Assembly: GCF_000018585.1 (NCBI RefSeq)
Contig: NC_009976.1
Location: 1,111,982 to 1,175,981 of the forward strand
Direction: 5' to 3'
Length of the DNA: 64,000 bases
Origin: Prochlorococcus marinus str. MIT 9211
GTDB lineage: Bacteria > Cyanobacteriota > Cyanobacteriia > PCC-6307 > Cyanobiaceae
A model generated the notes under the pieces. That model was not told the origin of the DNA. It saw nothing but the letters and a program-made list of their open reading frames with translations, and made no database searches. Shown here in pieces: positions 7,324 through 63,757 of this stretch. Position numbers and translations under genes: made by a program. The number at the start of each line of letters is the position of its first letter. Positions within the stretch are counted from its first letter, which is position 1.

Positions 7324-8501
7324 CGTAGATTAAAATCTAAATCAAAAAATTTTTTTCTTAGCAATTTTTCTATTTTGAGATTAGTCAATATGTACAATAT
7401 CTTTTGTACGGCTTCTCCTTCTCCATAAGGATTAGAATTATCATTTAGTAATTCCTGAAACTCTTTTGTATATATAGTAGATATTGAGTTATGTATTAAA
7501 TCTGCATCGGCTCTCACATTAATTACACTTTTTGCTGTCAATCTACCTTTTTGCCTTTCTCCAATGTTTATTGTACCTATATTGAAAGAGGGTGCCTCTA
7601 TAAGTCCACTTGATGAGTTTCCAATAACTGCATCGACATGAGACAGACAGGAAAGATACCGTAATTGGCCAAGGGATTTAAATGCAATAGCCGAATCATT
7701 TTCATTAACATATGAATTTATTATTTCTGTGATCCTGAAATTACCAGGGTCAGCATTAGGTAGAGTGAAAATCTGAAGAGTATTTTCCAGTCGAGATAAT
7801 GCTTTTATTAGTTCAACGACCTCTGATTCTGTTTGCTCTGATGAAGAAAGAGTTAAGGGATGGTATGTAATTATAAGATTTCTTTTGAGAAAATTTATTC
7901 CAATATCTTTCTCTAGATCTGCCCTACTTAAGAGATTTATTTTGTCAATTGCATCTACGCCTAACCCCCCTACATTATGCACATTAGAAGGTTTCTCACC
8001 TAATTGAATGACACGCTTACGATATTGCTCTGTAGCTACAAAGTGAATATGGGAAAGTTTAGTTAAACAATGCCTTATATTATCATCAAATGATCCTTCA
8101 GTTATTTCTCCTCCATGAATATGTGCAATTGGAATTCTGTGAACCATTGCTGCAGAAGCTGCTCCAAGTAATTCATAACGATCTCCTAATAATACGATTA
8201 AATCAGGTTTCATCCGCTCAAATGTGCCTGAAGCCTTAGTTATAATCTCTGCAAGAGAGAAACATGTAGATGAATTTGTATCTTCTTTTAAATCTATTTC
8301 AATTTCACTATCTATCAAAAAACCGTCTTTAATAATTTCATCTTTTGTATACCCATGTATTCTGGATAAGTGACTTCCAGTAACAACTAACTGAAGCGAA
8401 AGATCTCTTGATTGTTCAACTTCCTTCATTAAACATTTCAACAGTCCGTATTCAGCTCTTGTTCCAGTAATAAAACAAATTTTGTTTTTGCGTTTATTCA
8501 T
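7320..8501 (-). CDS. legG: Hydrolysing UDP/GDP-sugar 2-epimerase, LegG/NeuC-like
   Basis: This 393-residue protein belongs to the hydrolysing nucleotide-sugar 2-epimerase family. It removes the nucleotide and inverts C2 to give the hexose that the synthase condenses with PEP. Motifs include TGTRAEYGLLK at the N-terminus, IAHIHGGEITEGSFDDNIRH near residue 125, and IGNSSSGLIEAPSF near 290. It overlaps the LegI-like gene upstream by 8 bases and the phosphopantetheinyl transferase downstream by 4. NeuC is an alternative name. The LegB/LegC neighbours favour LegG. Confidence 0.83.
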   Translation of the reverse strand: MNKRKNKICFITGTRAEYGLLKCLMKEVEQSRDLSLQLVVTGSHLSRIHGYTKDEIIKDGFLIDSEIEIDLKEDTNSSTCFSLAEIITKASGTFERMKPDLIVLLGDRYELLGAASAAMVHRIPIAHIHGGEITEGSFDDNIRHCLTKLSHIHFVATEQYRKRVIQLGEKPSNVHNVGGLGVDAIDKINLLSRADLEKDIGINFLKRNLIITYHPLTLSSSEQTESEVVELIKALSRLENTLQIFTLPNADPGNFRITEIINSYVNENDSAIAFKSLGQLRYLSCLSHVDAVIGNSSSGLIEAPSFNIGTINIGERQKGRLTAKSVINVRADADLIHNSISTIYTKEFQELLNDNSNPYGEGEAVQKILYILTNLKIEKLLRKKFFDLDFNLR

Positions 8502-9507
8502 AATCTAATTCTATTATCTGATCTATACCAAATGATTTGGTGGCTTTTTGACCTAATACTTCTTCTAATCTCATGGGAGATATACCAGTTCCAGGTCGTT
8601 TAATACCAACATTTTCTTCAGTGAATAAATCACCTATCTTAATTTCATTTATAGCAACCAATGATTTTCTAACAATCTTGGCATTTTCTTTTTCAATAAG
8701 GGAGATATCCTTCACTCCAGAACCAAGTGCTAAATCTATTGATCTAATAGATTTTACCATTTCTTTTAATTCTATAGGCTCTAAACTTGCTTTATGGTCT
8801 GGCCCTTCCATTCCTCTATCTAATGTAAAATGTTTTTCTATAATATTTGCCCCAAGAGCTACAGCTGCTATCGGTATTTCTATGCCCATAGTGTGATCAG
8901 AGTAGCCTACATTAACACCAAAATTCTTCTTCAGTGTAGTTATAAAATTTAGATTAACTATTTCTTTTGGTGCTGGATATTCGCTAATACAATGAAGGAG
9001 GTTGACATTATTTTTCTTACATCCGCCTTTATATAAAATATTCAATGCTGCCTCAATTTCTGTTAATGTTGACATTCCTGTAGATAGGATAATCGGTTTA
9101 GCAAAAGAAGCTGCTCTTTCTAAATAAGGAAGGTTTGTTATCTCTCCGGAAGGGATCTTTAAATAATCAATGTTTAGTCTCTTGAGGAATTTTATCGCAT
9201 CTATATCAAAAGGACTAGATAAAAAACCTATATCATGATTAGCACATTCCTTTATAAGAGTATAATAATCATCTTCTTTTAATTCTAGTTTTCTAAGCAT
9301 ATCTAACTGAGTTTGACTGACTAAGTTATTTCTATTTTGGTAACTTGCACAATCGGAAAATTTAGTAACTAGTTTATCAGCAACAAAGCTCTGAAATTTC
9401 ACATAATTAGCTCCAGAGTCTGCTGCTACTTTAATAAGTTTCTTTGCCAAAGAAATATCACCATTATGGTTTACTCCTGCTTCAGCTATTACAATTGTAT
9501 TGTTCAT
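8494..9507 (-). CDS. legI: Nonulosonic acid synthase, LegI/NeuB-like
   Basis: The synthase condenses PEP with a 6-deoxy-diamino hexose or N-acetylmannosamine to form a nine-carbon keto acid. The N-terminal TIM-barrel domain opens with IAEAGVNHNGD and has the LHCISEYPAP strand near 170 and EKHFTLDR near 222. Residues from about 275 to the end form the SAF (antifreeze-like) domain (KRPGTGISP). The length of 337 is normal. It is the first gene of the leftward set. Legionaminic acid is preferred over sialic acid only because of the neighbours. Confidence 0.85.
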   Translation of the reverse strand: MNNTIVIAEAGVNHNGDISLAKKLIKVAADSGANYVKFQSFVADKLVTKFSDCASYQNRNNLVSQTQLDMLRKLELKEDDYYTLIKECANHDIGFLSSPFDIDAIKFLKRLNIDYLKIPSGEITNLPYLERAASFAKPIILSTGMSTLTEIEAALNILYKGGCKKNNVNLLHCISEYPAPKEIVNLNFITTLKKNFGVNVGYSDHTMGIEIPIAAVALGANIIEKHFTLDRGMEGPDHKASLEPIELKEMVKSIRSIDLALGSGVKDISLIEKENAKIVRKSLVAINEIKIGDLFTEENVGIKRPGTGISPMRLEEVLGQKATKSFGIDQIIELDYE

Positions 9508-47698: not shown

Positions 47699-48349
47699 AT
47701 GACTAAGAAATTCTCGGTTTCTAACTGTGCAAAGTTGTTTGTTGACTTTGATGGTGTATTGGTAGATTCAAATAGATTCAAGGAAGATGCAATACATCAG
47801 TCAATTAAAGAGGTTGCTGGCAACACAATTCTTGCTAAAGAAGCAATAGATTATTTCAATGAATATGCTGGTATCAGCAGAAAGGTGAAATTAAGAAAAT
47901 ATTTTAAGATGGGCGATGTTGATTTAATAATGCAAAGTTATGGGAAAAAGTGCAGAGAATTCTTCGTCAACTCTAAGTCAACAAGCGGTTCTATCGATTT
48001 CCTTAAAAGGGTCAAGGCGATTAAACCTTCCATAAAAGTATATATTTTAAGTGGTGGAGAAAAAGAAGAAATAAGATCTTTCATACTTAAGAATAAGATG
48101 GATAGTTACTTTAATGAATTGCTGTGTTCAGAAGAAAGCAAGTCTTATCACCTAAAAAGGTCTAAGGCCAATAGAGATGATATTTTTATAGGCGACAGCA
48201 AGAGTGATCTGAGCGTTGCTTTAAGTCATCCATTAAAGTTTATATATGTAGATGGTTTTGTTTCAGACCATTCCAGTCCAACAAAAGATCAATTCGATGC
48301 TATTAACATTACAGTTAAAAATCTAAGTGAACTAGAGCCAATAATATGA
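47699..48349 (+). CDS. HAD-superfamily phosphatase of module A
   Basis: The 216-residue protein has HAD motif I as LFVDFDGVLVDS, motif II in YILSGGEKEE, and motif IV in DIFIGDSKSDLSVAL. It is likely a sugar- or keto-sugar phosphatase. Its stop overlaps the start of the GAPDH-like gene by 4 bases (ATGA), so it belongs to the rightward set running to 53645. By position it may remove a phosphate before CMP activation, like KdsC or NeuA-linked phosphatases. The substrate is unknown. Confidence 0.8.
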   Translation: MTKKFSVSNCAKLFVDFDGVLVDSNRFKEDAIHQSIKEVAGNTILAKEAIDYFNEYAGISRKVKLRKYFKMGDVDLIMQSYGKKCREFFVNSKSTSGSIDFLKRVKAIKPSIKVYILSGGEKEEIRSFILKNKMDSYFNELLCSEESKSYHLKRSKANRDDIFIGDSKSDLSVALSHPLKFIYVDGFVSDHSSPTKDQFDAINITVKNLSELEPII

Positions 48350-49404
48350 AGAATACAATTAAGGTTGGAATAAATGGACTAGGCCGAATAGGAAGGCAAA
48401 TATTTCGCTTAGCAATTAAAGATCCTCAAATTGATATAATTGGAGTAAATGAACTTAATCCAGACATTAAGAATTGGGCTTATACATTAAATTACGATAC
48501 AATTTATGGAAAATTAGACACCACAGTTACCACTAAAGAAAATAGATTAATAGTCAATGGTAATAGAATCAATACATCACACGAAGAGGACATAGACAAG
48601 GTTGATTGGGGAACATGGAATGTTGATATTGTTATAGATTGCACGGGGATACAAAAAAATGTAATCAATGCAAGAAAGCTACTAGAGCGAAATGATGCTA
48701 AGAAAGTTATAGTTACTCACTCACCTGATGAAGTTGACTTCACAATGGTAATGGGTGTAAATGATAATAAATACAATCATAAGACTGATCATTTAATATC
48801 ATCTAGTATTTGTGATGCTACAGCTATTGGACCGGTTACTAAATTAATTAATGACAACTTTAGAATTGATTCTGGTTATGTAACAACACTACACCCATGG
48901 CTTAGTTATCAAAACCTTATGGATGGACCATCAAGTTCATGGGCAGTTGCAGGAGAAATTTTCCATCATTATGCACTTGGAAGGTCTGCAATAGGGAACA
49001 TGATCCCAAAGCCTACATCGGCAATGGATGCAGTCTTTAAAGTTATTCCTTCCCTTAGCTCAAAATCTATTGGCTCACTATCTTACCGGACACCAACTCA
49101 AATAATAGGATCTGCAGATATAACATATATAGTTAATTCTAAGGTAAGTAAAGATAACCTAATAAAACTTTTTAAATGTTATGAAGAGAATCAAAGCAAT
49201 CCAATAATTAAAATGTCAAATGAACCTCTTGTATCATTAGATTATATTGGAGAAGATTATTCTGCGATTATAGACACACGGTGGTTAGATGTAATAGGCG
49301 AAAATCTTATTAAGGTTGTTCTTTGGTATGATAATGAATATGGTTACTCTTGTAAGGTGATGTGTCAAGTAAAGCATATTGCTAGTTTCTTTAATAGTAT
49401 ATAA
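48346..49404 (+). CDS. GAPDH-like dehydrogenase with altered active-site motif
   Basis: The 352-residue protein has the GAPDH fold: VGINGLGRIGRQIFRLA at the N-terminus, NYDTIYG, and the catalytic-type His in VTTLHPWLSYQNLMDG. The usual SCTTNCLAP motif is replaced by SSICDATAIGP: the Cys is kept but the Thr-Thr-Asn is changed. The phosphate-binding STGAAK region reads PTSAMD. It is unlikely to be the glycolytic enzyme. It may oxidise a different aldose, as Epd does for erythrose-4-phosphate. It lies in an operon with a cytidylyltransferase and an aldolase. Confidence 0.82.
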   Translation: MKNTIKVGINGLGRIGRQIFRLAIKDPQIDIIGVNELNPDIKNWAYTLNYDTIYGKLDTTVTTKENRLIVNGNRINTSHEEDIDKVDWGTWNVDIVIDCTGIQKNVINARKLLERNDAKKVIVTHSPDEVDFTMVMGVNDNKYNHKTDHLISSSICDATAIGPVTKLINDNFRIDSGYVTTLHPWLSYQNLMDGPSSSWAVAGEIFHHYALGRSAIGNMIPKPTSAMDAVFKVIPSLSSKSIGSLSYRTPTQIIGSADITYIVNSKVSKDNLIKLFKCYEENQSNPIIKMSNEPLVSLDYIGEDYSAIIDTRWLDVIGENLIKVVLWYDNEYGYSCKVMCQVKHIASFFNSI

Positions 49405-49427
49405 GGAATAAATAATTATCTAAAAAA

Positions 49428-50135
49428 ATGTATAAAGGAAATCTACCAAGAGTCATAGCGGTTGTACCAGTCAAAAAGGTTTCCGAGAGAGTACCTAATA
49501 AAAACTTTAGAGAATTTACCAAAGATGGTTCTTCTCTATTAGATATACTTTTAGAGAAGTTATTAAAGATAAAGACTGTAGATCATATATACATTAGTAC
49601 AAACTATCAAGATTTAAGCATTGAAAGCGATAATAAAATCAGTCTTATAGACCGAGATGATACTTATTGCAATAACATAACTTCTTGGAGTGATGTTATC
49701 TATAATATAGTTAACTCTATTCCTGAAGATGATAACTCAATAATACTATGGTGTCATACAACAACACCACTTTTCGATGAGTACCAAAAAGCATTGAATA
49801 AATTTATAGACCTAGATAAAAATAATTTCAATTCTTTAGTAGTTGTAGAAAAACTTAAAGAATTTATTATAGATGATAAGGGCAGGCCCTGGAATTATTC
49901 CTATGGAGTATGGCATCCCTATTCACAGAATCTACCTTCCCTATACAAAATATCAGGTTCTTTATTCATAAATTATCTTGCGGAAATGAAAAAGACTAGA
50001 TACGTTATAAATACAAAGCCATTCTTATATGAAATTGATTCAAAGTATGGAATTGACATTGATACAAAATGGGAGTTTAAGATGGCACAAATTCTGAATG
50101 ACAACAAAAATGAACTTAATAATATTGAGAAATGA
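49428..50135 (+). CDS. CMP-ulosonate cytidylyltransferase, NeuA-like, module A
   Basis: The 235-residue protein belongs to the acylneuraminate cytidylyltransferase family. The nucleotide-binding segment VVPVKKVSERVPNKNFR is a variant of the usual PARxGSKRxPxKN. LWCHTTTPLFDEY replaces the QPTxPxR motif, and the end has YGIDIDTKWEFKMAQ. It probably attaches CMP to an acidic keto sugar. Its divergence from LegF at 5938 and from KdsB-like 59658 suggests a different substrate. It overlaps the aldolase gene by 4 bases. Confidence 0.78.
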   Translation: MYKGNLPRVIAVVPVKKVSERVPNKNFREFTKDGSSLLDILLEKLLKIKTVDHIYISTNYQDLSIESDNKISLIDRDDTYCNNITSWSDVIYNIVNSIPEDDNSIILWCHTTTPLFDEYQKALNKFIDLDKNNFNSLVVVEKLKEFIIDDKGRPWNYSYGVWHPYSQNLPSLYKISGSLFINYLAEMKKTRYVINTKPFLYEIDSKYGIDIDTKWEFKMAQILNDNKNELNNIEK

Positions 50136-50890
50136 ATTTTAGAGAAAAGCTAATAAAAAGAGAAAAAGTCCTAGGCACATGGGTTACAAGCCCATCCGTT
50201 CATAGCTTAGATTCAATTTGCTCTACTGGAATTGATTTTGTGATTCTTGATCAAGAGCATGGGACAATTGCTTTTGGTGACTTGCTGCCCCTAATCAATA
50301 CGGCTAAGGCTCATAACTGTTTCGCGATGGTTAGGCCTTCATCAATTAATAAAGATTCCATTCAACAAGCCTTAGACAATGGAGCTCATGGTATACAAGT
50401 ACCAAATGTTGAGAATGTACAGGATGCAATGCTAGTAGTAGATTATGCTAAGTACCCACCAATCGGTTCTAGAGGTTATTCCCCATTTGTACCAAGTTCA
50501 AATTATCAGAACAATGGGCCATCATGGAATATTCAAATGAATGAACTTCTTGTTACTGGAATCAATGTAGAAGGCAAAGAAGGAATAGAGAGTATAGATT
50601 CTATTATGTCTATCGATGGGATAGATATTATATTTGTTGGTCTATTTGATTTGTCGAAAGCTTTAGGGATAGCTGGTGAGGTTCAAAATCAAATAGTTAT
50701 TGATAAACTTAAAGATGTTATAAAAAGTGCCAAGAAGCATAAAAAATCAATCGGGACAATTGCTACATCATTTGATCATATGAAATTTCTAATGAGCATA
50801 GGAGTTAACTTTATTGTTCACATGGTAGATATGAATATATTAAATGAGTCATATAAAATGATACATAATTCATTTAAAGAAAACCTATAA
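50132..50890 (+). CDS. HpcH/HpaI-type aldolase, module A
   Basis: The 252-residue protein is a class II, metal-dependent aldolase of the type that joins or splits pyruvate and an aldehyde. Motifs are FVILDQEHG near residue 38, AMVRPSSIN, GIQVPNVEN near 91, the RGYSPF loop, the metal-binding Glu in GINVEGKEGIE, and FVGLFDLSKALGI near 173. It overlaps the cytidylyltransferase by 4 bases and precedes a D-2-hydroxyacid dehydrogenase. In this context it may make a 2-keto-3-deoxy sugar acid. Confidence 0.87.
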   Translation: MNFREKLIKREKVLGTWVTSPSVHSLDSICSTGIDFVILDQEHGTIAFGDLLPLINTAKAHNCFAMVRPSSINKDSIQQALDNGAHGIQVPNVENVQDAMLVVDYAKYPPIGSRGYSPFVPSSNYQNNGPSWNIQMNELLVTGINVEGKEGIESIDSIMSIDGIDIIFVGLFDLSKALGIAGEVQNQIVIDKLKDVIKSAKKHKKSIGTIATSFDHMKFLMSIGVNFIVHMVDMNILNESYKMIHNSFKENL

Positions 50891-50900
50891 AAGAATCAAC

Positions 50901-51854
50901 ATGCAGAATGATATAGTATCAGTAACAGATCATATAAAAGATTATATTGTTGAAAGAGATATTCTTGGAGAATACTTTTCAGATCAATTAACTAGTCAGA
51001 CTACAATAGCTTTAGTTTGGCATGAAGTAATCAATCAAGATTTTCTATCAAAATATCCAAGTATTAGAGCAATTGTAAGATATGGAGTTGGCTTTGACAA
51101 TATAGATCTAGAAATCTGTAGAAAAAGAAAAATAATTGTTGTAAATACTCCTGACTATGGAATTGACGAAGTATCTGATACTGCTCTAGCGATGATCTTA
51201 TGTTTAACAAGAAAAATTAATTCCTTTCAAGAATTTGCCAAAGAAGATGAATATTCTTGGAGCGGGAAAGATATACCCTTCCCTGTTAAAAGGATACGAG
51301 ATATGAGCCTAGGGATAATTGGTCTTGGTAGGATAGGCGGCTGCTTAGCTAGGAAATTCACAGCATTATCAAATAATGTTGGATTCCACGACCCTTACCT
51401 GCCTTCAGGCGTGGAGAAAGTCCTTGGATTAAAAAGGTTTCAGAGTTTGCAAGATTTACTTCGAAATTCGGATATTGTTTCAATTCATACTCCTCTTAAC
51501 CATGAGTCAAAAGGGTTAGTCAATGAAGACTTCATATCAAACATGAAGGATGGTTCTTACCTAATTAATGTTTCAAGAGGTGCCATAGTGAAAGACAAGA
51601 GCATAATCTATGATGCTCTTGTCTCACACAAATTAGAAGGATATGGGACCGATGTATGGACACAAGAGCCTCCAACAGACAAAGATCAGTTATATATAAA
51701 TTGGAAAAAAGAAAATGCTTATGCAGGTAGAATAATAATTAACCCGCATACTGCCTACTATAGTCACGAATCATTAGAAGAGGCTAGGACCAAGGCCTGC
51801 AAAAATTGTCTAAATATTATTAAAGGCAGAAATATTATTAATAGGATTGTTTAA
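50901..51854 (+). CDS. D-2-hydroxyacid dehydrogenase, module A
   Basis: The 317-residue protein is in the D-isomer-specific 2-hydroxyacid dehydrogenase family. The NAD-binding motif is LGIIGLGRIGGCLARKF near residue 142. The catalytic Arg, Glu and His are in NVSRGAIV, DVWTQEPP and INPHTAYYS. It interconverts a 2-hydroxyacid and a 2-keto acid. With a GAPDH-like gene nearby, the pair recalls Epd and PdxB of the vitamin B6 pathway. It could also serve a sugar-acid precursor. Confidence 0.87.
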   Translation: MQNDIVSVTDHIKDYIVERDILGEYFSDQLTSQTTIALVWHEVINQDFLSKYPSIRAIVRYGVGFDNIDLEICRKRKIIVVNTPDYGIDEVSDTALAMILCLTRKINSFQEFAKEDEYSWSGKDIPFPVKRIRDMSLGIIGLGRIGGCLARKFTALSNNVGFHDPYLPSGVEKVLGLKRFQSLQDLLRNSDIVSIHTPLNHESKGLVNEDFISNMKDGSYLINVSRGAIVKDKSIIYDALVSHKLEGYGTDVWTQEPPTDKDQLYINWKKENAYAGRIIINPHTAYYSHESLEEARTKACKNCLNIIKGRNIINRIV

Positions 51855-51905: not shown

Positions 51906-53645
51906 ATGAAAGAAGCCAATGAAATTTTGCATATTCTTGTAAAGGAGACTGATAAAGATCGAATTAATCTAAAAAATACAAGCCATTACTCTATAACACC
52001 ATTAATATCTACTGAATGGTTATTTCAAAGTCAAGTAAATAGTCATCCCAATCCCAATAAAACAGCTTCTTTGTCAGCAAATTTATTAGAGAGGGTAGAG
52101 GCAGCAACAACCCTAATAAATAATTTAATAGAGAATTGTACAACACTAGATTGTATCAATTCGATCGAGGAGCTAATGGCACCTTACCTTCACGTAAGAC
52201 TATCCTCTTTTTACTACCTAGAAAGTATAATACCTAATTCGAAAAGATATTCATTATTTAATAAAGGTAAGTGGATTGTTTTAACTAATAAAACAGATCT
52301 AATTATTGGTATAGAGAATATTCTTATACAAGACAAAGGTAGTTCCTTAGTCAGTACATATAGATATAGTAGACTATCGTCAAACCTATTAAGCAGTTGC
52401 CTGATAAGGCTACAAAGGTACCTAATTGGGTTTAGACTAAATTCTAAACAAAAACATTATTTTCTTTCAGACAGATCCTCATATTATTTCCCCAAAATAA
52501 AAGATAAGCTAAAAAAAGAAAATAAGAGATTAATTACTTTTCAATGTACTAAAGATTTAAGAAAGATTTTTATTTTGATGTTAATTAACATCGTTAATTT
52601 AATTTTTAAGCGGAGCCGTGCTCCTATTAGGATGATACTCCACCCCTATGAAGAGAAGACTAAGCTAAGTAGTAAAGTAATCCTAAGGTTAATTAAAAAA
52701 GTACCATTAGAACTAATTCCGGAAAAATACAAAGGAATTTTGGCATTAGATATATCAAACTATCTTAACCTTACAATTTCATATATTGATTATTTAAGTA
52801 CAATTTTTAAAGGGAGAAATATAACCTCTATCTTTCATAGCACTAGATACCCTGATCTGTATGCTTTAGCCTCTACTTTAGAAAAGGCCAAAGGTAAGAT
52901 GTATCTCATATCGCATGGAACACATACTCTTCAAATGAAAGGTTCACCTTCTTTCATTGCATCTAGACAGCTAGCATTAGGAGTTCTTTACTCTAATTTA
53001 AAATCTATTATACATTGCAGTCAGTCAATATTTACTGATAATTACTTCGATTCCATTGGTTACAAGTATTTAAATATATTACCTCTAGGTCAAGTAACTA
53101 TTAATAATAAAATTCCTTGTGAGGGAACAATAAAGAATTCTAAGTTAACGATTTTACATGCATCAACTTTTAAACCTGAAGGTGTAAGGCGTTATTATTT
53201 CGAATCTTCTTATGAATACTTAAGTGGCCTAGTAAATATTTGTGAAAAGCTTGCTCCAATTAAGGATGATATTGAATTTATTGTAAGAGTCCGTTTTCAT
53301 GAGAATGAAGTGAACAAGATTTATCTAGAAAATATTCTTCGTCGGTTTTCACAATTTACCAGACTATCGAGTAATAGCACTCTTAAAGAAGATCTATATA
53401 AATCAGATTGCCTAATAGCACACTCATCAACAACACTAGAAGAAGGCTTTAACTCTTCTATACCTGTAATGAGTATAGGGAAAACCAGTTATGATCACCT
53501 TTCATATTATAAACAGCTTAAACTTCCAAATAACCATCCTAAGTATCTTCAACTTCAAAGGATTGAAAAACTACTAATGAGAACTTTTATTTACAGTACT
53601 AATCCATTAGAAGGTCGTAAAAACAATTTCTTAGATGTCATATAA
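51906..53645 (+). CDS. Large putative GT-B-type glycosyltransferase, module A
   Basis: The 579-residue protein has no clear family name. Its C-terminal third is typical of nucleotide-sugar or CDP-glycerol GT-B transferases: MYLISHGTHTLQMKG near 340, KLTILHASTFKPEG near 420, and SDCLIAHSSTTLEEGFNSSIPVMSI near 510. The N-terminal half is basic and poorly conserved by eye, with a hydrophobic segment (IFILMLINIVNLIF) near 222. It follows the module A sugar genes, so a CMP-keto-sugar donor is plausible. A second protein of similar size and ending lies at 57856. Confidence 0.6.
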   Translation: MKEANEILHILVKETDKDRINLKNTSHYSITPLISTEWLFQSQVNSHPNPNKTASLSANLLERVEAATTLINNLIENCTTLDCINSIEELMAPYLHVRLSSFYYLESIIPNSKRYSLFNKGKWIVLTNKTDLIIGIENILIQDKGSSLVSTYRYSRLSSNLLSSCLIRLQRYLIGFRLNSKQKHYFLSDRSSYYFPKIKDKLKKENKRLITFQCTKDLRKIFILMLINIVNLIFKRSRAPIRMILHPYEEKTKLSSKVILRLIKKVPLELIPEKYKGILALDISNYLNLTISYIDYLSTIFKGRNITSIFHSTRYPDLYALASTLEKAKGKMYLISHGTHTLQMKGSPSFIASRQLALGVLYSNLKSIIHCSQSIFTDNYFDSIGYKYLNILPLGQVTINNKIPCEGTIKNSKLTILHASTFKPEGVRRYYFESSYEYLSGLVNICEKLAPIKDDIEFIVRVRFHENEVNKIYLENILRRFSQFTRLSSNSTLKEDLYKSDCLIAHSSTTLEEGFNSSIPVMSIGKTSYDHLSYYKQLKLPNNHPKYLQLQRIEKLLMRTFIYSTNPLEGRKNNFLDVI

Positions 53646-57855: not shown

Positions 57856-59469
57856 TCAAATTCTAGTTAGAAACTCCTTTTTAAAGTGATTTATATGTAT
57901 AGGTGGATTTCTTAGATAGGATGTGGTTATTGCTATAACATTAGCCTTTGACTCTAATGCTAAATTTACATATGATGAGTTGCTAAAGATGCAAAATTCT
58001 GTATAGCTGATTGACTCTAAGATAGATTCTTGTTTAGAGTTTATTATTTTAAAATTAGGTAATTCTAAATTAGATTCTCTCCTTAGCTTTTTTAATTGCC
58101 TAAGTGCTTCTGTTAATGATATGCTTGGATGTAAACGTAAATAAAAATCATTATGCTTTAACTCAGCATAAGTTATTTGACTGTAGTTATAATGATGGAA
58201 GAAACGTCTTAAACAAATATAGATTTCCTGAGACTCAGAATGAGAGAAGTAAGTAATATATCTAGATTCTGATGGGGGAGTTTCTCTTATAGAAAGTTGT
58301 GGTGATTTATATCTTTTCAAAGATATCCTAGCCAAAGAAAATGATGATTTTGAACTATTATTTTTTGTGGCTTCCTTTAGTTCCAATAAGGATGTTTTAT
58401 CTTGTAGCATAAAGTTGTTGACTGCACAAAACCCCATTTCTTGTTCAAACTGTGTTGGCTTATACTGAGGTAAAGAGTTAAGTGAATAGGCAAATCCATA
58501 ATAAGTAATTATGTTAGATGCGAGTTCAGGGATAAAATATTTAGAGTTTAAAAGACCAATACTCAGTGACTTGTTATAAATTTGGTTTTCCTGCCAGAGA
58601 TATATTCTCTCAGACCTATATCTTTTAAGAATTGCATCTGCTGAATAATAGTTTAATAGAGAATAATAACGTTGATGTAAACTCGAGAAAGCTTTAAATG
58701 AAGCTATGAAAGAAGAATATGAAAAATACCTCACATATGATAACTCATAGAAATGAATCAATACTAATCTATATATGGCCTGGAGAATATGAATAGGTTT
58801 AATAAAGTCTAAGGCTGAATGAATATTTCTAAATCTAAAAGTAGATAGAATTCCGAAGGTTATAAATTTAAATCCATAAAAGGAAGTAGCTAATGCAGAG
58901 TTAATATTAGATTGATCGTTAAAGTCAGGATAATAATATTCTATGGATTTTTCTTCTTTTGTTTTCCAGAAATAAATAGTATACAAATCATTTTTTAAGG
59001 AATCTATTTCTCTTCTATTAAAAGGGGAAGGTAAAGCATACTTATAGAAAGAGTATAGAGTGGTAAGTAAAATAATTCCAATTAAATCAATGGTTGACTT
59101 GAGTATTTTTATTAGGAGAATGAGAAATGAAGTGGCTATATACTTGAAATCCTTAAAGGTAAGTATCAATTTTAAAGCATATAATTTACCTATCCTATAG
59201 GCTATTTTTTCTTCTTCATTTAAAGAAGCGAATAAATCGGCTGATATAGTATGATTAGTTGAACCTAAAATAAACATTGTTTGTAAAGGAGTAGTGTCTA
59301 AACCTCCAATGTCCCTATCACAAATAAAGGAAAGTAATAAGTATCTTTTCCTAGAATATAAAGATTTACTAGATATCTTTCTGAACTCATTTAAGCGAGA
59401 TAGCGCTAAGAAAAGTTTATTTGCTTCTGTGAAAGAAACTATAAAAGGTTCCTGCCTGTCAAGAAACAT
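57856..59469 (-). CDS. Large putative glycosyltransferase, module B side
   Basis: The 537-residue protein is not recognised as a whole. Its last 60 residues (LESISYTEFCIFSNSSYVNLALESKANVIAITTS) resemble the donor-site end of GT-B transferases, like that of the 51906 gene. Residues near 440-460 (NDFYLRLHPSISLTEALRQL) also fit. The N-terminal part has a hydrophobic segment (SFLILLIKILKSTIDLIGIILLTTLYSF) near 115-140. It is convergent with the GT2 gene and divergent from the KdsB-like gene. It may transfer the module B sugar. Confidence 0.5.
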   Translation of the reverse strand: MFLDRQEPFIVSFTEANKLFLALSRLNEFRKISSKSLYSRKRYLLLSFICDRDIGGLDTTPLQTMFILGSTNHTISADLFASLNEEEKIAYRIGKLYALKLILTFKDFKYIATSFLILLIKILKSTIDLIGIILLTTLYSFYKYALPSPFNRREIDSLKNDLYTIYFWKTKEEKSIEYYYPDFNDQSNINSALATSFYGFKFITFGILSTFRFRNIHSALDFIKPIHILQAIYRLVLIHFYELSYVRYFSYSSFIASFKAFSSLHQRYYSLLNYYSADAILKRYRSERIYLWQENQIYNKSLSIGLLNSKYFIPELASNIITYYGFAYSLNSLPQYKPTQFEQEMGFCAVNNFMLQDKTSLLELKEATKNNSSKSSFSLARISLKRYKSPQLSIRETPPSESRYITYFSHSESQEIYICLRRFFHHYNYSQITYAELKHNDFYLRLHPSISLTEALRQLKKLRRESNLELPNFKIINSKQESILESISYTEFCIFSNSSYVNLALESKANVIAITTSYLRNPPIHINHFKKEFLTRI

Positions 59470-59657: not shown

Positions 59658-60416
59658 ATGGTCAAAAGCAATAATTCCAGTTGGGTCCTCATTATTCCAG
59701 CGAGGCTAGATTCAAAACGTCTGCCAAGCAAACCTCTGATAAAAATACTAGGCAAGACAATCATTGAAAGAACCTATAGCCAGGCATTAAAAGCAGTAAA
59801 GGACAAAAACAAAATCATAATTGCAACAGATTCCTTAGAAATAAAGAAGCATTGTGATGATATCAATGCCAAAGTTTGCCTAACTTCTAAAAATTGTCTA
59901 ACTGGAACTGACCGAGTTGCCGAAGTAGCCAAGCATATTGAAGTAGATCAATATATAAATCTTCAGGGCGATGAGCCAATTTTCCCAGTCAGCGAATTGA
60001 ACGAATTTATTAATAGCGTCAATGTCAATAACAAATTTGTTTATACGGCTGTAAAGAGGATAACTTCAAAGGAAGAATTTTTTAATAGTTCAATCCCTAA
60101 AATGGTCTTTACAAAATCAAAAAACTTGCTTTATTCTTCTCGTGCTCCTATACCATCTAATAAACAGAGTTCTTTTAGTTTCGGTTATAAGCATATTTGT
60201 ATTTATGCTTTTAATAGATTACATTTAGAAGCTTTTTCTCAATGCATTAAAAAAACAACTTTTGAGGATGAAGAAGACCTTGAAATTAATAGGTTTTTAG
60301 AGTTAGATATAAGAGTTAAATGTATTGAATTGAAGAATTCAGGAAAAGCTGTTGACAATGAATCTGATTTAATAGATGTGACAAAAATCATCAGCAGTAA
60401 TCCCTCATTATACTAG
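59658..60416 (+). CDS. kdsB: KdsB-like CMP-ulosonate cytidylyltransferase, module B
   Basis: The 252-residue protein closely follows KdsB (CMP-Kdo synthetase): LIIPARLDSKRLPSKPL, TGTDRVAEVA near residue 83, NLQGDEPIFP, YSSRAPIP, and AVDNESDLIDV near the end. No kdsA, kdsC or kdsD gene is present in the window, and marine picocyanobacteria generally lack Kdo. It may therefore act on a related 3-deoxy-ulosonic acid. Its 3' end overlaps the convergent aldolase gene by 26 bases. Confidence 0.87.
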   Translation: MVKSNNSSWVLIIPARLDSKRLPSKPLIKILGKTIIERTYSQALKAVKDKNKIIIATDSLEIKKHCDDINAKVCLTSKNCLTGTDRVAEVAKHIEVDQYINLQGDEPIFPVSELNEFINSVNVNNKFVYTAVKRITSKEEFFNSSIPKMVFTKSKNLLYSSRAPIPSNKQSSFSFGYKHICIYAFNRLHLEAFSQCIKKTTFEDEEDLEINRFLELDIRVKCIELKNSGKAVDNESDLIDVTKIISSNPSLY

Positions 60417-61134
60417 TATATTCAATTACATCACTATTCAATGAGTTAAAGAATTTCGATGTATCTACAGAGGCGATAGGATATTGTACTCCTAGTTCCA
60501 ATAAGATCTTCAACTCATCCAATGTCCTGTAAATAGCAAGCATTTTCTTTTTATAATGCTTTGAAAGTTTTAATAATTCTCTAAGTTGGTTAATAACAGG
60601 TTCAGAGAAGATATCTCCCTTGCAAGATAGCTCAACCGAAATATCATATGCTCCAAAATATACAAAATCAATATAAGAATCAGCTAATAAATCATCTGAT
60701 GATTTAATACCCTTTAAAGATTCAATCAGAATTCCTATATTAGGATTATGGTCTTTAGCAGGTGATGCTTTCCCATAAGAAAATCTATGGACAAATGGAC
60801 TGAAACTTCTATTACCTGCAGGGTATAACAGAGCATTACTTTTTAAACTATCTATTTGTGATGTATTTTCAATATGTGGGAAAAGTATTCCATCAACACC
60901 TGAATCAACAAGTTGATTCAAATATGGATAGTTTATAGAAGGTACTCTAACAATTGTAAGCAAGTTATTAGATTGTGCAGCAAAAAGACATTTTTGAACA
61001 GTTTGATGGTCATGCAGACCATGTTCTAAATCTAATATGGAAAGATCAAAGCCTGACTTGCCAATAATATCCGTAATTAGCTCAGAAGAAAGTATTTGCC
61101 AGATTCCTAGGCCTGATCTAAAAGTCATAACCAA
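60391..61134 (-). CDS. HpcH/HpaI-type aldolase, module B
   Basis: The 247-residue protein has the family motifs LSILDLEHGLHD near residue 34, TIVRVPSIN, GILFPHIEN, the NRSFSPF loop, the metal Glu in GILIESLKG and the metal Asp in FGAYDISVEL. It is therefore probably an active pyruvate-type aldolase. Its start overlaps the end of the LdpA-like gene by 17 bases, so the two are translated together. It is a distant paralogue of the aldolase at 50132. Confidence 0.85.
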   Translation of the reverse strand: MVMTFRSGLGIWQILSSELITDIIGKSGFDLSILDLEHGLHDHQTVQKCLFAAQSNNLLTIVRVPSINYPYLNQLVDSGVDGILFPHIENTSQIDSLKSNALLYPAGNRSFSPFVHRFSYGKASPAKDHNPNIGILIESLKGIKSSDDLLADSYIDFVYFGAYDISVELSCKGDIFSEPVINQLRELLKLSKHYKKKMLAIYRTLDELKILLELGVQYPIASVDTSKFFNSLNSDVIEYTSIMRDYC

Positions 61135-62143
61135 GATTATTAGAAATTAATTTATGTGCTGATGAAACAGCATCATATATATTATGACTAGTATCTCCTA
61201 AAATTATAGACTGAATCTCATTTTTAACTATTTTTCTAGCATGCGTTCCTATAGTAATTCCTGAGAAGTTAACTTCACATTGACGAGCGAGTTGTCCAGT
61301 TAAGGTATTAGTACCACCTGATATAAGAACAGGCATTTTGCTAAATTTTCTGTCTTTTAATTTCAGTTCTTTATTTATGATATCTGCTATTGCTACTGCC
61401 TGAAGAGTAGTATTAAAGTCATCTTTACCTCCACTCATTGGTATCCCATCTGCTTGTATAATTATGCGATCATCTGCTATTTGCTGTGCTTGTTTAATTC
61501 GATCTATTAAATGTACATTTGTCATATGATATCTATCTAGGCACATAGATACCATTCCATTTGGGACTGCTTCACATACAGTTTTCCATTCATTCATAGT
61601 AGTTTTATCATCAGGAACACCAGCATGCAGCTCAATACTTTCAGCTCCAGCATCAACGCATTGAGGAAGTATCAAGGAAAGTTCTTTAGCATTATGCCTA
61701 TAAGTAATAGCTGAAGCTGCAGGGGGGCATACTGCCTCACAATTACCACATCCTATGCATAAGCTATCTACAATTTCTAGCGTTGAAGGAATAGCATCTG
61801 TTGGACAAACAGGGATGCATAAATTACATTTTACGCAATCATCAGTGATAATTGCCTTTCTAACATGATGGTCTCCAGGCATCCCAACACTTACGGTAAT
61901 AAAAGGAGGGTCTTTAGGGTCTGACCAGTATGGATTAGGATAGGAGTACGCAGAATCAATACCTTCCTTGCAAGCCCTGACTACATCAGGACTAGCAGAA
62001 ACATCGAACCCCTTACATCCAGCCAAGGTATATATAAAGGATAGTTTTCTGACTTCATTGATGTCTTCATTACCTGCGCCACAAACCAGCTTAAAAAAAG
62101 ATCCCGTCGACAAAAGCTCCTTATATCTCGCGAATCTATCCAT
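61118..62143 (-). CDS. LdpA-like protein with two 4Fe-4S motifs
   Basis: The 341-residue protein resembles LdpA, a cyanobacterial iron-sulphur protein linked to light input to the circadian clock. The similarity is in the start (GSFFKLVCGAGNEDINEVRKL, YTLAGCKGFDVSASPDVV) and the following domain. It has two full ferredoxin motifs, CVKCNLCIPVCP near residue 99 and CIGCGNCEAVCP near 130. The C-terminal half looks like a TIM barrel (IIIQADGIPMSGG, VLISGGTNTLTG). It is probably a paralogue recruited to the sugar set and not the clock protein. It overlaps the aldolase. Confidence 0.75.
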   Translation of the reverse strand: MDRFARYKELLSTGSFFKLVCGAGNEDINEVRKLSFIYTLAGCKGFDVSASPDVVRACKEGIDSAYSYPNPYWSDPKDPPFITVSVGMPGDHHVRKAIITDDCVKCNLCIPVCPTDAIPSTLEIVDSLCIGCGNCEAVCPPAASAITYRHNAKELSLILPQCVDAGAESIELHAGVPDDKTTMNEWKTVCEAVPNGMVSMCLDRYHMTNVHLIDRIKQAQQIADDRIIIQADGIPMSGGKDDFNTTLQAVAIADIINKELKLKDRKFSKMPVLISGGTNTLTGQLARQCEVNFSGITIGTHARKIVKNEIQSIILGDTSHNIYDAVSSAHKLISNNLGYDF

Positions 62144-62197
62144 CGATCAATTAAATACATGTAGATAATAACATTTTTAAAGGTAAAAGGAATTAAC

Positions 62198-62959
62198 CTA
62201 CTGTTGATTGACAATAATTTCCTTTAGGGTTTGAACTGATGAAGGATTAATTGAAAGTAATTCTTCTAATCCTATTTGACCTGTTGCTACAAGTATTGAA
62301 CCCGCTAATTCTGCTTTGTTGGCCATAATATAATCCATTTTCGCATCTCCTATTGCCATAACATTATTAGGAGATAAACAAAGAGATTTACAAACCTGCA
62401 AAGCTGGTTCTCCTGTAATCTTTTTCCCATACCCAGAATCTCCGCCTAAAATAATCTCGAAAATATTCATTAATTCTAATTTTTGTAAAGTGGAAATAGC
62501 GTTATACTCCTTATCACTTGTAACCAATGCAAGCTTAACTCCTAATGAATATAATAGCGTGGCAAAATTTAGTGCTGATTCTAATGGCTTAATATAATTA
62601 TTAGATTCTATTTTGAAGCCTAATTGAACTGATTCAAAGATTAAGTTTATTTCTTTTTCTGTAGATTGTATTGAATGATTATATAAATATCTTAAAACAG
62701 CATCTATAACTTCATCCCTACTTTTTATAGCTATTGGTCCCTCTGGCAAAAGTCGATTAGATGAGCTGTCAAATCCCATTGATAGCATAAGGCTATGCAA
62801 ATATGATTTTGGGAGTTTAAACTCTTTTAAAAGAATATTAGCCCTCCTTAAGATAATTTCTTTCCAGTAGATATGACTATCTGTAAGAGTACCATCTTTG
62901 TCAAAGATGACAGCCTTGATGTTTTTATAAGTTCTCTGGTTTACACTAATATCTACCAT
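62198..62959 (-). CDS. HAD-superfamily phosphatase, module B
   Basis: The 253-residue protein has motif I AVIFDKDGTLTDS, motif II in LALVTSDKEYN, the Lys in YGKKITGEP, and motif IV AIGDAKMDYIMA. It has a long cap domain (residues 25-130), as in phosphoglycolate and beta-phosphoglucomutase types. It lies 6 bases after the CitE-like gene and before the LdpA-like gene. By analogy with KdsC it may dephosphorylate the keto-sugar phosphate. The substrate is unknown. Confidence 0.83.
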   Translation of the reverse strand: MVDISVNQRTYKNIKAVIFDKDGTLTDSHIYWKEIILRRANILLKEFKLPKSYLHSLMLSMGFDSSSNRLLPEGPIAIKSRDEVIDAVLRYLYNHSIQSTEKEINLIFESVQLGFKIESNNYIKPLESALNFATLLYSLGVKLALVTSDKEYNAISTLQKLELMNIFEIILGGDSGYGKKITGEPALQVCKSLCLSPNNVMAIGDAKMDYIMANKAELAGSILVATGQIGLEELLSINPSSVQTLKEIIVNQQ

Positions 62960-62965
62960 ATTAAT

Positions 62966-63757
62966 TCATTCAATCCTGGCTTTTATTACACCTATCCTAA
63001 TATTCTCTTCTGCTGATCGAAGTTCATATAAGGCCCTCTTATATCTTAACCAAGCAAGTTCAAACTGTAGTCCTTTATTGATAATATCTACAAAATATTC
63101 CCTTGAACAGTTTTTTGAAGATCTAAAGGTACATTTCCTAGACTCAAAAGAATCGAGTCCAAAAGAACTTAGTCGGTCTATAAATTCAAAACTATTTGTT
63201 GACAAATTACCGCCTACGGTAAATCCTATAGACCTTGAGGATGCCTTTGTATGAATTTGTTTGGCAATCTCAAAAATTTCTAGCGAGTTAACATCACTTA
63301 TATTTAAAGAAGCGGAAAGGTCTGTCCTACCTAAGACAATAGAAGAGATAGGCAGTTTATAGGAATCGATAGTCTGTAAAATCGAATCAAAATTTTTAAC
63401 TGCTAATTTTGTCTCTATGTTTACAAAAAGCTTCGGTTTCTGTTTTAATACATGGAAAACAGGCAAAAGTTTCGAGAAAGTCTCTGAACAAACTTCTACA
63501 GCAAATGAGGACTCAACCATTGGTATTAAAATATTAGAAGCTCCTAATTGAAAAGCTTCATAAATATCTCTACTTGCAGACGGTCCTCCCACTTTTAGAG
63601 TAAGAGGAATTGAGTATTTACAACAAAGTTGAGATAATACAGATAGCTCTTCGATACGAGTTCCTTCTGCCTCAAATTCCGCCTTAATAGCCAATAATTG
63701 ACTTGTTTTAGAAAGATCTAGAAGACTATTCTCTAAAACAGATAAATACGTTTTCAT
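62966..63757 (-). CDS. CitE/HpcH-type aldolase/citrate lyase family protein, module B
   Basis: The 263-residue protein has the family signature of sugar-island aldolases: LLAIKAEFEAEGTRIEEL near residue 22, LTLKVGGPSASRDIYEA, ILIPMVESSFAVE near 77, a metal Glu in FVNIETKLA near 112, and the metal Asp in VLGRTDLSASLN near 144. It is a different branch from the aldolases at 50132 and 60391 and lacks their DxEHG motif. Its ATG overlaps the stop of the gene upstream by one base. Confidence 0.78.
   Translation of the reverse strand: MKTYLSVLENSLLDLSKTSQLLAIKAEFEAEGTRIEELSVLSQLCCKYSIPLTLKVGGPSASRDIYEAFQLGASNILIPMVESSFAVEVCSETFSKLLPVFHVLKQKPKLFVNIETKLAVKNFDSILQTIDSYKLPISSIVLGRTDLSASLNISDVNSLEIFEIAKQIHTKASSRSIGFTVGGNLSTNSFEFIDRLSSFGLDSFESRKCTFRSSKNCSREYFVDIINKGLQFELAWLRYKRALYELRSAEENIRIGVIKARIE

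Follow-up and report, generated by a model that had tools for sequence, protein, structure and literature searches.

The window, by which we mean the whole 64,000-nucleotide stretch of the Prochlorococcus marinus str. MIT 9211 genome analysed here, contains at positions 47699-51854 a tandem of five open frames, all on the + strand, encoding a HAD phosphatase, a GAPDH-like enzyme, a cytidylyltransferase, an HpcH/HpaI aldolase and a D-2-hydroxyacid dehydrogenase (HADH), and the family of each has been confirmed with Pfam and NCBIfam models. These genes, and the one that follows them, are listed below.

47699..48349, + strand: HAD-type phosphatase (HAD_2; PF13419, 5.8e-11)
48346..49404, + strand: aldehyde dehydrogenase with the GAPDH fold, in a clade of its own (Pfam/NCBIfam models, tree and residues)
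49428..50135, + strand: NeuA/PseF-like cytidylyltransferase (CTP_transf_3; PF02348)
50132..50890, + strand: HpcH/HpaI class II 2-keto-acid aldolase (PF03328, 1.6e-23; HpaI, 1.2e-38)
50901..51854, + strand: D-2-hydroxyacid dehydrogenase (HADH) of a distinct clade (PF02826, 5.6e-42; PF00389)
51906..53645, + strand: 579-aa protein of no assigned family (no Pfam or NCBIfam match)

As read from the sequence, a 4-bp ATGA overlap joins the HAD and GAPDH-like genes (48346-48349) and another joins the cytidylyltransferase and aldolase genes (50132-50135), while gaps of 23 nt and 10 nt separate the GAPDH-like gene from the cytidylyltransferase gene and the aldolase gene from the HADH gene, respectively. 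An earlier note on this DNA had described a tight rightward five-gene set with 4-base overlaps at two junctions, and the frames, the junction sequence and the family models all agree with that description.

The five-gene set goes beyond chance, since all five families recur jointly in six further loci (L007, L010, L088, L131, L151 and L152), found in one Denitrovibrio MAG (Deferribacterota), three Bacteroidota genomes and two viral contigs, and the gene order in L010 and L151 is identical to that in the window. Variants of the cassette occur in Cyanobium, in Pelagibacter and on other phage contigs, some with an FAH-family gene replacing the aldolase; the cassette is accompanied by surface-glycan genes and is also carried on contigs bearing T4-like phage structural genes. 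Among the 201 family genomes and 386 phylum genomes sampled, matches to the GAPDH clade were found only in the window genome and one Cyanobium, and among the records listed for isolated phages and plasmids the clade was absent and only ordinary GAPDHs of about 35% identity or less appeared. The cassette type is well supported, and the five genes are best read as a self-contained cassette that moves horizontally, including between unrelated bacteria and phages. A search of the literature for this gene combination, or for hexulosonic or pentulosonic acid biosynthesis, found no described equivalent.

In the aldolase, the catalytic residues His43, Arg68, Glu147 and Asp173, of which the Glu and Asp bind the metal, are those of HpcH/HpaI class II enzymes and are invariant across the seven loci in which the gene is present, and the window copy carries Pro121 where the other six have Arg. 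Family and catalytic residues are common to this enzyme and the class II pyruvate aldolases HpaI, GarL and YfaU, but its scores of 107-133 bits fall short of the curated cut-offs (369-441) and its setting is biosynthetic. The grouping of the two dehydrogenase families with an aldolase, on which the earlier note had remarked, holds in the window and the six further loci but is not universal, as the complete Cyanobium genome (G154) has a reduced core of GAPDH, cytidylyltransferase and HADH with no aldolase relative at E<=1e-8, and in L086 and L137 an FAH-family gene stands in the aldolase's stead. The aldolase is therefore accessory and lies outside the universal core.

The earlier note had also likened the two dehydrogenases to Epd and PdxB and had proposed a phylogeny of both, regarding a firm grouping inside glycolytic GAPDH and SerA as contrary to its reading; that grouping did not appear. 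The GAPDH-like proteins of the cassettes form one clade (support 100/100) outside GapA, Gap2, ArsJ-GAPDH and Epd, and the cassette HADHs form one clade (support 99/99) that leaves E. coli SerA, E. coli PdxB and the host SerA-like protein outside; in the trees built, neither clade has a member from outside the cassettes. Identity with Epd was rejected for the GAPDH-like enzyme (188.7 and 171.6 bits against cut-offs of 539 and 530.55), as were identity with PdxB (84 and 47 bits against 434 and 687) and with SerA (190 bits against 454) for the HADH. These positions and scores argue that the GAPDH-like enzyme is neither Epd nor a glycolytic GAPDH, and likewise that the HADH is neither PdxB nor SerA. 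What endures of the likeness is the pairing rather than the membership, as the two enzymes belong to dedicated clades and co-diverge (distance r=0.84, permutation p=0.001), which supports a genuine, long-lived pair.

The catalytic residues of the pair are intact. In the GAPDH-like enzyme the equivalents of Cys149, His176 and Arg231 are kept as Cys156, His183 and Arg248, and its catalytic residues, including the Cys156 and His183 that correspond to the catalytic pair of type I GAPDH, are invariant in the ten loci compared. The Pi site of type I GAPDH, however, is lost, with Ser148 replaced by Ile (Ile155) and Thr150 by Asp (Asp157), both invariant among cassette copies; the S-loop carries an insert of about 10 residues, which AlphaFold predicts at low confidence, and the curated type I score is 263 bits against a cut-off of 367. 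In the HADH, the triad Arg226-Glu256-His283 and Asp164, as expected of the D-2-hydroxyacid dehydrogenase superfamily with its Rossmann NAD site, are invariant in ten loci, Trp40 is conserved, and Asp164 suggests NAD as the cofactor.

Both enzymes have broad GAPDH and 2-HADH fold membership, and they might accordingly be ordinary housekeeping proteins (the GAPDH of glycolysis with SerA, or enzymes of vitamin B6 synthesis) lying by chance in a polysaccharide island. This is very improbable, as the separate clades in the trees already contradict it, the GAPDH clade has just the two cyanobacterial matches given above, and the host genome holds its own SerA-like gene and another GAPDH. Vitamin B6 as the main role was rejected because, of the cyanobacterial genomes sampled, no more than two carry the GAPDH clade and because neither enzyme groups with Epd or PdxB, and a role in the serine pathway was rejected because of the separate SerA-like gene. 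Compared with Epd and PdxB, which convert erythrose-4-phosphate to 2-oxo-3-hydroxy-4-phosphobutanoate for vitamin B6, the cassette resembles them in pairing a GAPDH-fold enzyme with a D-2-HADH, plausibly for consecutive C1 and C2 oxidation, and differs in the clades of its enzymes, in its partners (cytidylyltransferase, phosphatase and aldolase), in the company of surface-sugar genes and in its occurrence on viral contigs.

The cytidylyltransferase, underweighted in the earlier note, suggests that the product is a nucleotide-activated sugar acid. Its family profile matches CMP-NeuAc synthetases best (1eyr, 4.8e-32), and the conserved Asp pair of NeuA-type CMP-ulosonate synthetases, the DxD of DIDxxxDF, is present in every full-length row aligned, the viral copy in L131 reading EID. 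The enzyme is proposed to activate a 2-keto sugar acid with CMP, and the HAD enzyme, homologues of which sit before the GAPDH gene in L007, L010, L085-087, L151 and L152, is proposed to free the sugar-acid phosphate. It is likely that the cassette makes a CMP-activated acidic sugar. The cassette shares with the CMP-nonulosonic acid and CMP-Kdo pathways (NeuB/NeuA and KdsA/KdsC/KdsB) a NeuA-like cytidylyltransferase, a HAD phosphatase, a surface-glycan setting and, elsewhere, nearby Maf-like PF01973 genes. Neither the open frames nor the Pfam/NCBIfam models show a PEP-condensing NeuB-type synthase in the cassette, the host NeuB lying about 40 kb away; in its stead are two NAD-type dehydrogenases together with either a class II pyruvate aldolase or an FAH-family protein.

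It would be possible for the aldolase to take the place of such a synthase by joining pyruvate to an aldehyde, giving a classic 3-deoxy-2-ulosonate to be dephosphorylated and CMP-activated, with the dehydrogenases preparing the acceptor aldehyde or oxidising the far end of the chain. Aldolase, HAD enzyme and CMP transferase would then parallel KdsA/KdsC/KdsB, and the aldolase has every catalytic residue intact in its seven loci; yet the complete Cyanobium genome keeps the other three genes without it, L086 and L137 have an FAH-family gene instead, and the conserved dehydrogenase pair is left without a clear task, so we consider this scheme rather unlikely.

The best chemical reading of the dehydrogenase pair is C1 followed by C2 oxidation, and with a probability of roughly 0.4 the cassette would make a CMP-activated 2-keto sugar acid (ulosonate) for surface glycans by this oxidative route rather than by PEP condensation. 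We infer the order of the reactions, the sugar and the role of the aldolase. The GAPDH-like enzyme would oxidise an aldose phosphate at its C1 aldehyde, yielding an aldonate phosphate that is released by thioester hydrolysis and not phosphorolysis because the Pi site is lost, and the HADH would then oxidise C2 to give a 2-keto-aldonate phosphate, following the logic of Epd and PdxB with enzymes of other clades. The HAD enzyme would strip the phosphate and allow ring closure, the NeuA-like enzyme would move CMP from CTP onto the anomeric hydroxyl, and a glycosyltransferase, often Maf-like PF01973 in other genomes, would place the sugar. That the host already has a SerA-like gene, another GAPDH and a NeuB to cover the usual jobs speaks for the oxidative route, as does the use of 2-keto acids as substrates throughout the HADH, HpcH, FAH and NeuA families. 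The aldolase, or the FAH-family enzyme in some lineages, may tailor the 2-keto acid by way of a metal-bound enolate, with chain extension and C3 epimerisation as examples, or may choose which ulosonate forms. Its occurrence in seven loci counts against the oxidative route, as plain C1/C2 oxidation needs no aldolase.

Another arrangement would use all five enzymes in one line, the GAPDH-like enzyme and HADH giving 3-phosphohydroxypyruvate, from which the HAD enzyme frees hydroxypyruvate for the aldolase to add to an aldehyde, yielding a CMP-activated 3-hydroxy ulosonate. The HADH profile does lie near CtBP and phosphoglycerate dehydrogenases of the PDB, but 3-phosphoglycerate is already abundant, which makes a special GAPDH redundant, the altered Pi site speaks against the usual GAPDH reaction, and the Cyanobium core persists without the aldolase; we regard this arrangement as improbable.

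The GAPDH clade may not always serve C1/C2 oxidation, because a Pelagibacter SAG (L011) has the GAPDH and cytidylyltransferase with no HADH found nearby, and a second Pelagibacter genome (L138) has a clade GAPDH beside a KARI-like enzyme, a 2-phosphoglycerate-kinase-like protein, an SDR and a sugar nucleotidyltransferase. The latter neighbourhood would suit a reductive use, in which the GAPDH-like enzyme would make an aldehyde from an acyl phosphate or other activated acid, the HADH would likewise work as a reductase, on a 2-keto acid, and the resulting hydroxy acid or polyol would be nucleotide-activated. No kinase that makes acyl phosphates was seen in the other cassettes, however, the Pi site meant for an acyl phosphate is altered, and NeuA-like enzymes act on anomeric hydroxyls; such a use is improbable.

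To our knowledge, every CMP-activated ulosonate, be it a sialic acid, Kdo, pseudaminic acid or legionaminic acid, is 3-deoxy and comes only from a PEP-condensing synthase, so the 3-hydroxy product of the oxidative route would be unprecedented, which counts against the route. As a tentative proposal, the cassette may represent a novel way of making nucleotide-activated ulosonic acids: oxidation of an aldose phosphate at C1 and C2 by a dedicated GAPDH-like/HADH pair would replace PEP condensation, the C3 hydroxyl would be kept, and the genes would be mobile between bacterial phyla and phages. If true, this exchange of PEP condensation for two dehydrogenases would bring to light a class of surface sugar so far overlooked in ocean bacteria, and with five small enzymes the predicted sugar and each step are directly testable. 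The E. coli K3 capsule holds 4-deoxy-2-hexulosonic acid (as cited in PMC10433991), which, as far as that citation goes, indicates that ulosonates not named 3-deoxy occur in capsules.

With regard to transfer of the sugar, Maf enzymes draw on CMP-ulosonic donors, and their PF01973 domain resembles the sialyltransferase Cst-II (PMC11339370). PF01973 genes lie near the cassette in L007, L010, L151 and L152, and weakly in L086, which is circumstantial as a sign of the cognate transferase; none was observed next to the window's own cassette. The 579-aa protein, whose gene starts 51 nt downstream, is possible as the cognate transferase. It is not conserved with the cassette, its one relative in the 201 family genomes (37% identical) having no cassette genes beside it, and its AlphaFold model is uninformative (mean pLDDT 43).

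That some contigs carry the cassette together with T4-like phage structural genes suggests its use or dissemination by phages, perhaps to alter receptors. The epaA-epaB genes of Acinetobacter prophages are likewise phage-carried and modify an acidic sugar on the surface of the host, but they epimerise an existing sugar (PMC12053666), whereas the cassette appears to build a CMP-sugar acid from central metabolites.

Pfam and NCBIfam confirm that five families lie in tandem, GAPDH-like enzyme and D-2-hydroxyacid dehydrogenase (HADH) among them, with the coordinates and order proposed in the earlier note:

47699-51854, + strand: HAD phosphatase, GAPDH-like enzyme, cytidylyltransferase, HpcH/HpaI aldolase, D-2-hydroxyacid dehydrogenase

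The two 4-base overlaps it described are likewise present, as ATGA at the HAD/GAPDH and cytidylyltransferase/aldolase junctions, and the remaining junctions are gaps of 23 and 10 nt. The cassette has a GC content of 0.30-0.34 vs 0.38 in the window's upstream sequence, so the region fits an acquired island, and on both sides genes that by eye resemble sugar-nucleotide epimerases and dehydratases place it in a surface-polysaccharide region. Two long proteins are also encoded in the window, one at 51906-53645, which lacks any Pfam or NCBIfam match, and another at 57856-59469 (- strand).

The earlier comparison with Epd and PdxB, which carry out consecutive oxidations of erythrose-4-phosphate, is useful as a chemical analogy but does not extend to family membership, with both cassette clades lying outside Epd and PdxB. 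A more informative description would be a mobile cassette for a CMP-activated sugar acid; searches of mostly non-subscription literature gave no account of this five-gene set. In a 37-sequence tree, whose midpoint root calls for caution, nine cassette GAPDHs form one group (100/100 support) that excludes Epd, E. coli GapA, the other GAPDH of the host, and ArsJ-type GAPDHs assigned by motif. These enzymes retain both catalytic residues, Cys and His, as well as the equivalent of substrate-binding Arg231; in every cassette compared the inorganic phosphate site has Ser148 replaced by Ile and Thr150 by Asp, while Thr179 is replaced by Leu and the S-loop carries about 10 extra residues. The AlphaFold model of the GAPDH-like protein (mean pLDDT 86) matches GAPDH structures, though confidence is low in the insert. 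The cassette HADHs also form one group (99/99 support), separate from E. coli SerA, E. coli PdxB and the additional HADHs that the carriers encode; all ten loci preserve the catalytic triad of the cassette enzyme, and the host has a separate SerA-like gene. Pairwise distances correlate between GAPDH and HADH (r=0.84, permutation p 0.001), GAPDH and cytidylyltransferase (0.71), and HADH and aldolase (0.87), which supports long co-inheritance, although alone this is no proof of a shared pathway because the carriers' shared descent contributes.

Searches using the GAPDH-like protein, or alignments built on it, located close relatives in few places only. Besides the window, all five families occur in a Denitrovibrio MAG (L010, identical order), three Bacteroidota genomes (L007, L151 and L152, with identical order in L151) and two viral contigs (L088 and L131), and the five-gene set is a conserved unit. 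Near the cassette in two Bacteroidota genomes lies a second cytidylyltransferase of another type (L152:7973-8887 and L151:3829-4503). Three related viral contigs, L085-L087, share an arrangement of HAD, GAPDH and HADH matches, and a full reading of L086 shows a cytidylyltransferase and an FAH-family gene in between. In a Pelagibacter genome (L137), GAPDH and HADH face a cytidylyltransferase and an FAH-family gene. Cyanobium ATX 6A2 has GAPDH-cytidylyltransferase-HADH only, its complete genome yielding no HpcH relative; a Pelagibacter SAG has GAPDH-cytidylyltransferase only, and contig L084 ends after the same pair. Since another Pelagibacter locus (L138:9701-13613) pairs a member of the GAPDH clade with a different gene set (2-phosphoglycerate-kinase-like, KARI-like, SDR and sugar nucleotidyltransferase genes), the clade may not be confined to a single pathway.

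The cyanobacterial search covered overlapping samples of 201 genomes from the family and 386 from the phylum, and matches came only from the window genome and Cyanobium. Such scattered occurrence is consistent with horizontal transfer in which phages are among the carriers. The GAPDH closest to that of the window (63% identity) is on L084, which encodes T4-type tail-sheath stabiliser, head-closure and head-tail adaptor proteins, while L086 encodes a late sigma factor family member. The 175-kb viral contig L131, with its full cassette, encodes a 2-aminoadenylosuccinate synthetase family protein (L131:51-1058), which hints at modified phage DNA. A contig binned as Thioalkalivibrio (L009) has GAPDH and HADH close to those of Cyanobium and a flanking gene (L009:365-988) resembling Cyanobium L006:15196-15798 by eye; it is probably a contig of cyanobacterial origin placed in the wrong bin.

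For the cytidylyltransferase family profile, the best matches are CMP-N-acetylneuraminate synthetases. PF01973 genes lie inside or within about 10 kb of the cassette in the Denitrovibrio and all three Bacteroidota loci, and weakly in L086; in Maf glycosyltransferases the central PF01973 domain resembles sialyltransferase Cst-II, and both CMP-Neu5Ac and CMP-Kdo can serve as donors for Maf enzymes (PMC11339370). Four families involved (HADH, HpcH, FAH and NeuA) work on 2-keto acids, and the simplest product class would accordingly be a CMP-activated 2-keto sugar acid. The host strain also has a gene of the PEP-condensing nonulosonate pathway, a separate NeuB-type synthase (PF03102, window 8494-9507, - strand) about 40 kb from the cassette. 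Since the smallest set seen in a complete genome dispenses with the aldolase yet keeps GAPDH and HADH, the favoured origin of the keto acid is oxidation at C1 and then C2; phosphate removal and CMP transfer would follow, with each step's direction inferred. The aldolase might extend the chain or act through an enolate, for example as an epimerase, and this would further account for an FAH-family enzyme standing in its place. Residue 121 of the window aldolase (50132-50890) is Pro, as opposed to Arg in 6/6 other cassette aldolases (SPFVPSS vs SPFTRAG in most), and the window enzyme may differ in its acceptor.

A second set, whose genes other than that of the KdsB-like enzyme were assigned by eye or by similarity to the first cassette, is also present in the window:

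59658-63757, on into the following DNA (L003) to about 3438: KdsB-like cytidylyltransferase, HpcH aldolase, 4Fe-4S protein, HAD phosphatase, further HpcH-like proteins, D-lactate-dehydrogenase-like protein

Here the cytidylyltransferase-HAD-aldolase theme recurs with other oxidoreductases.
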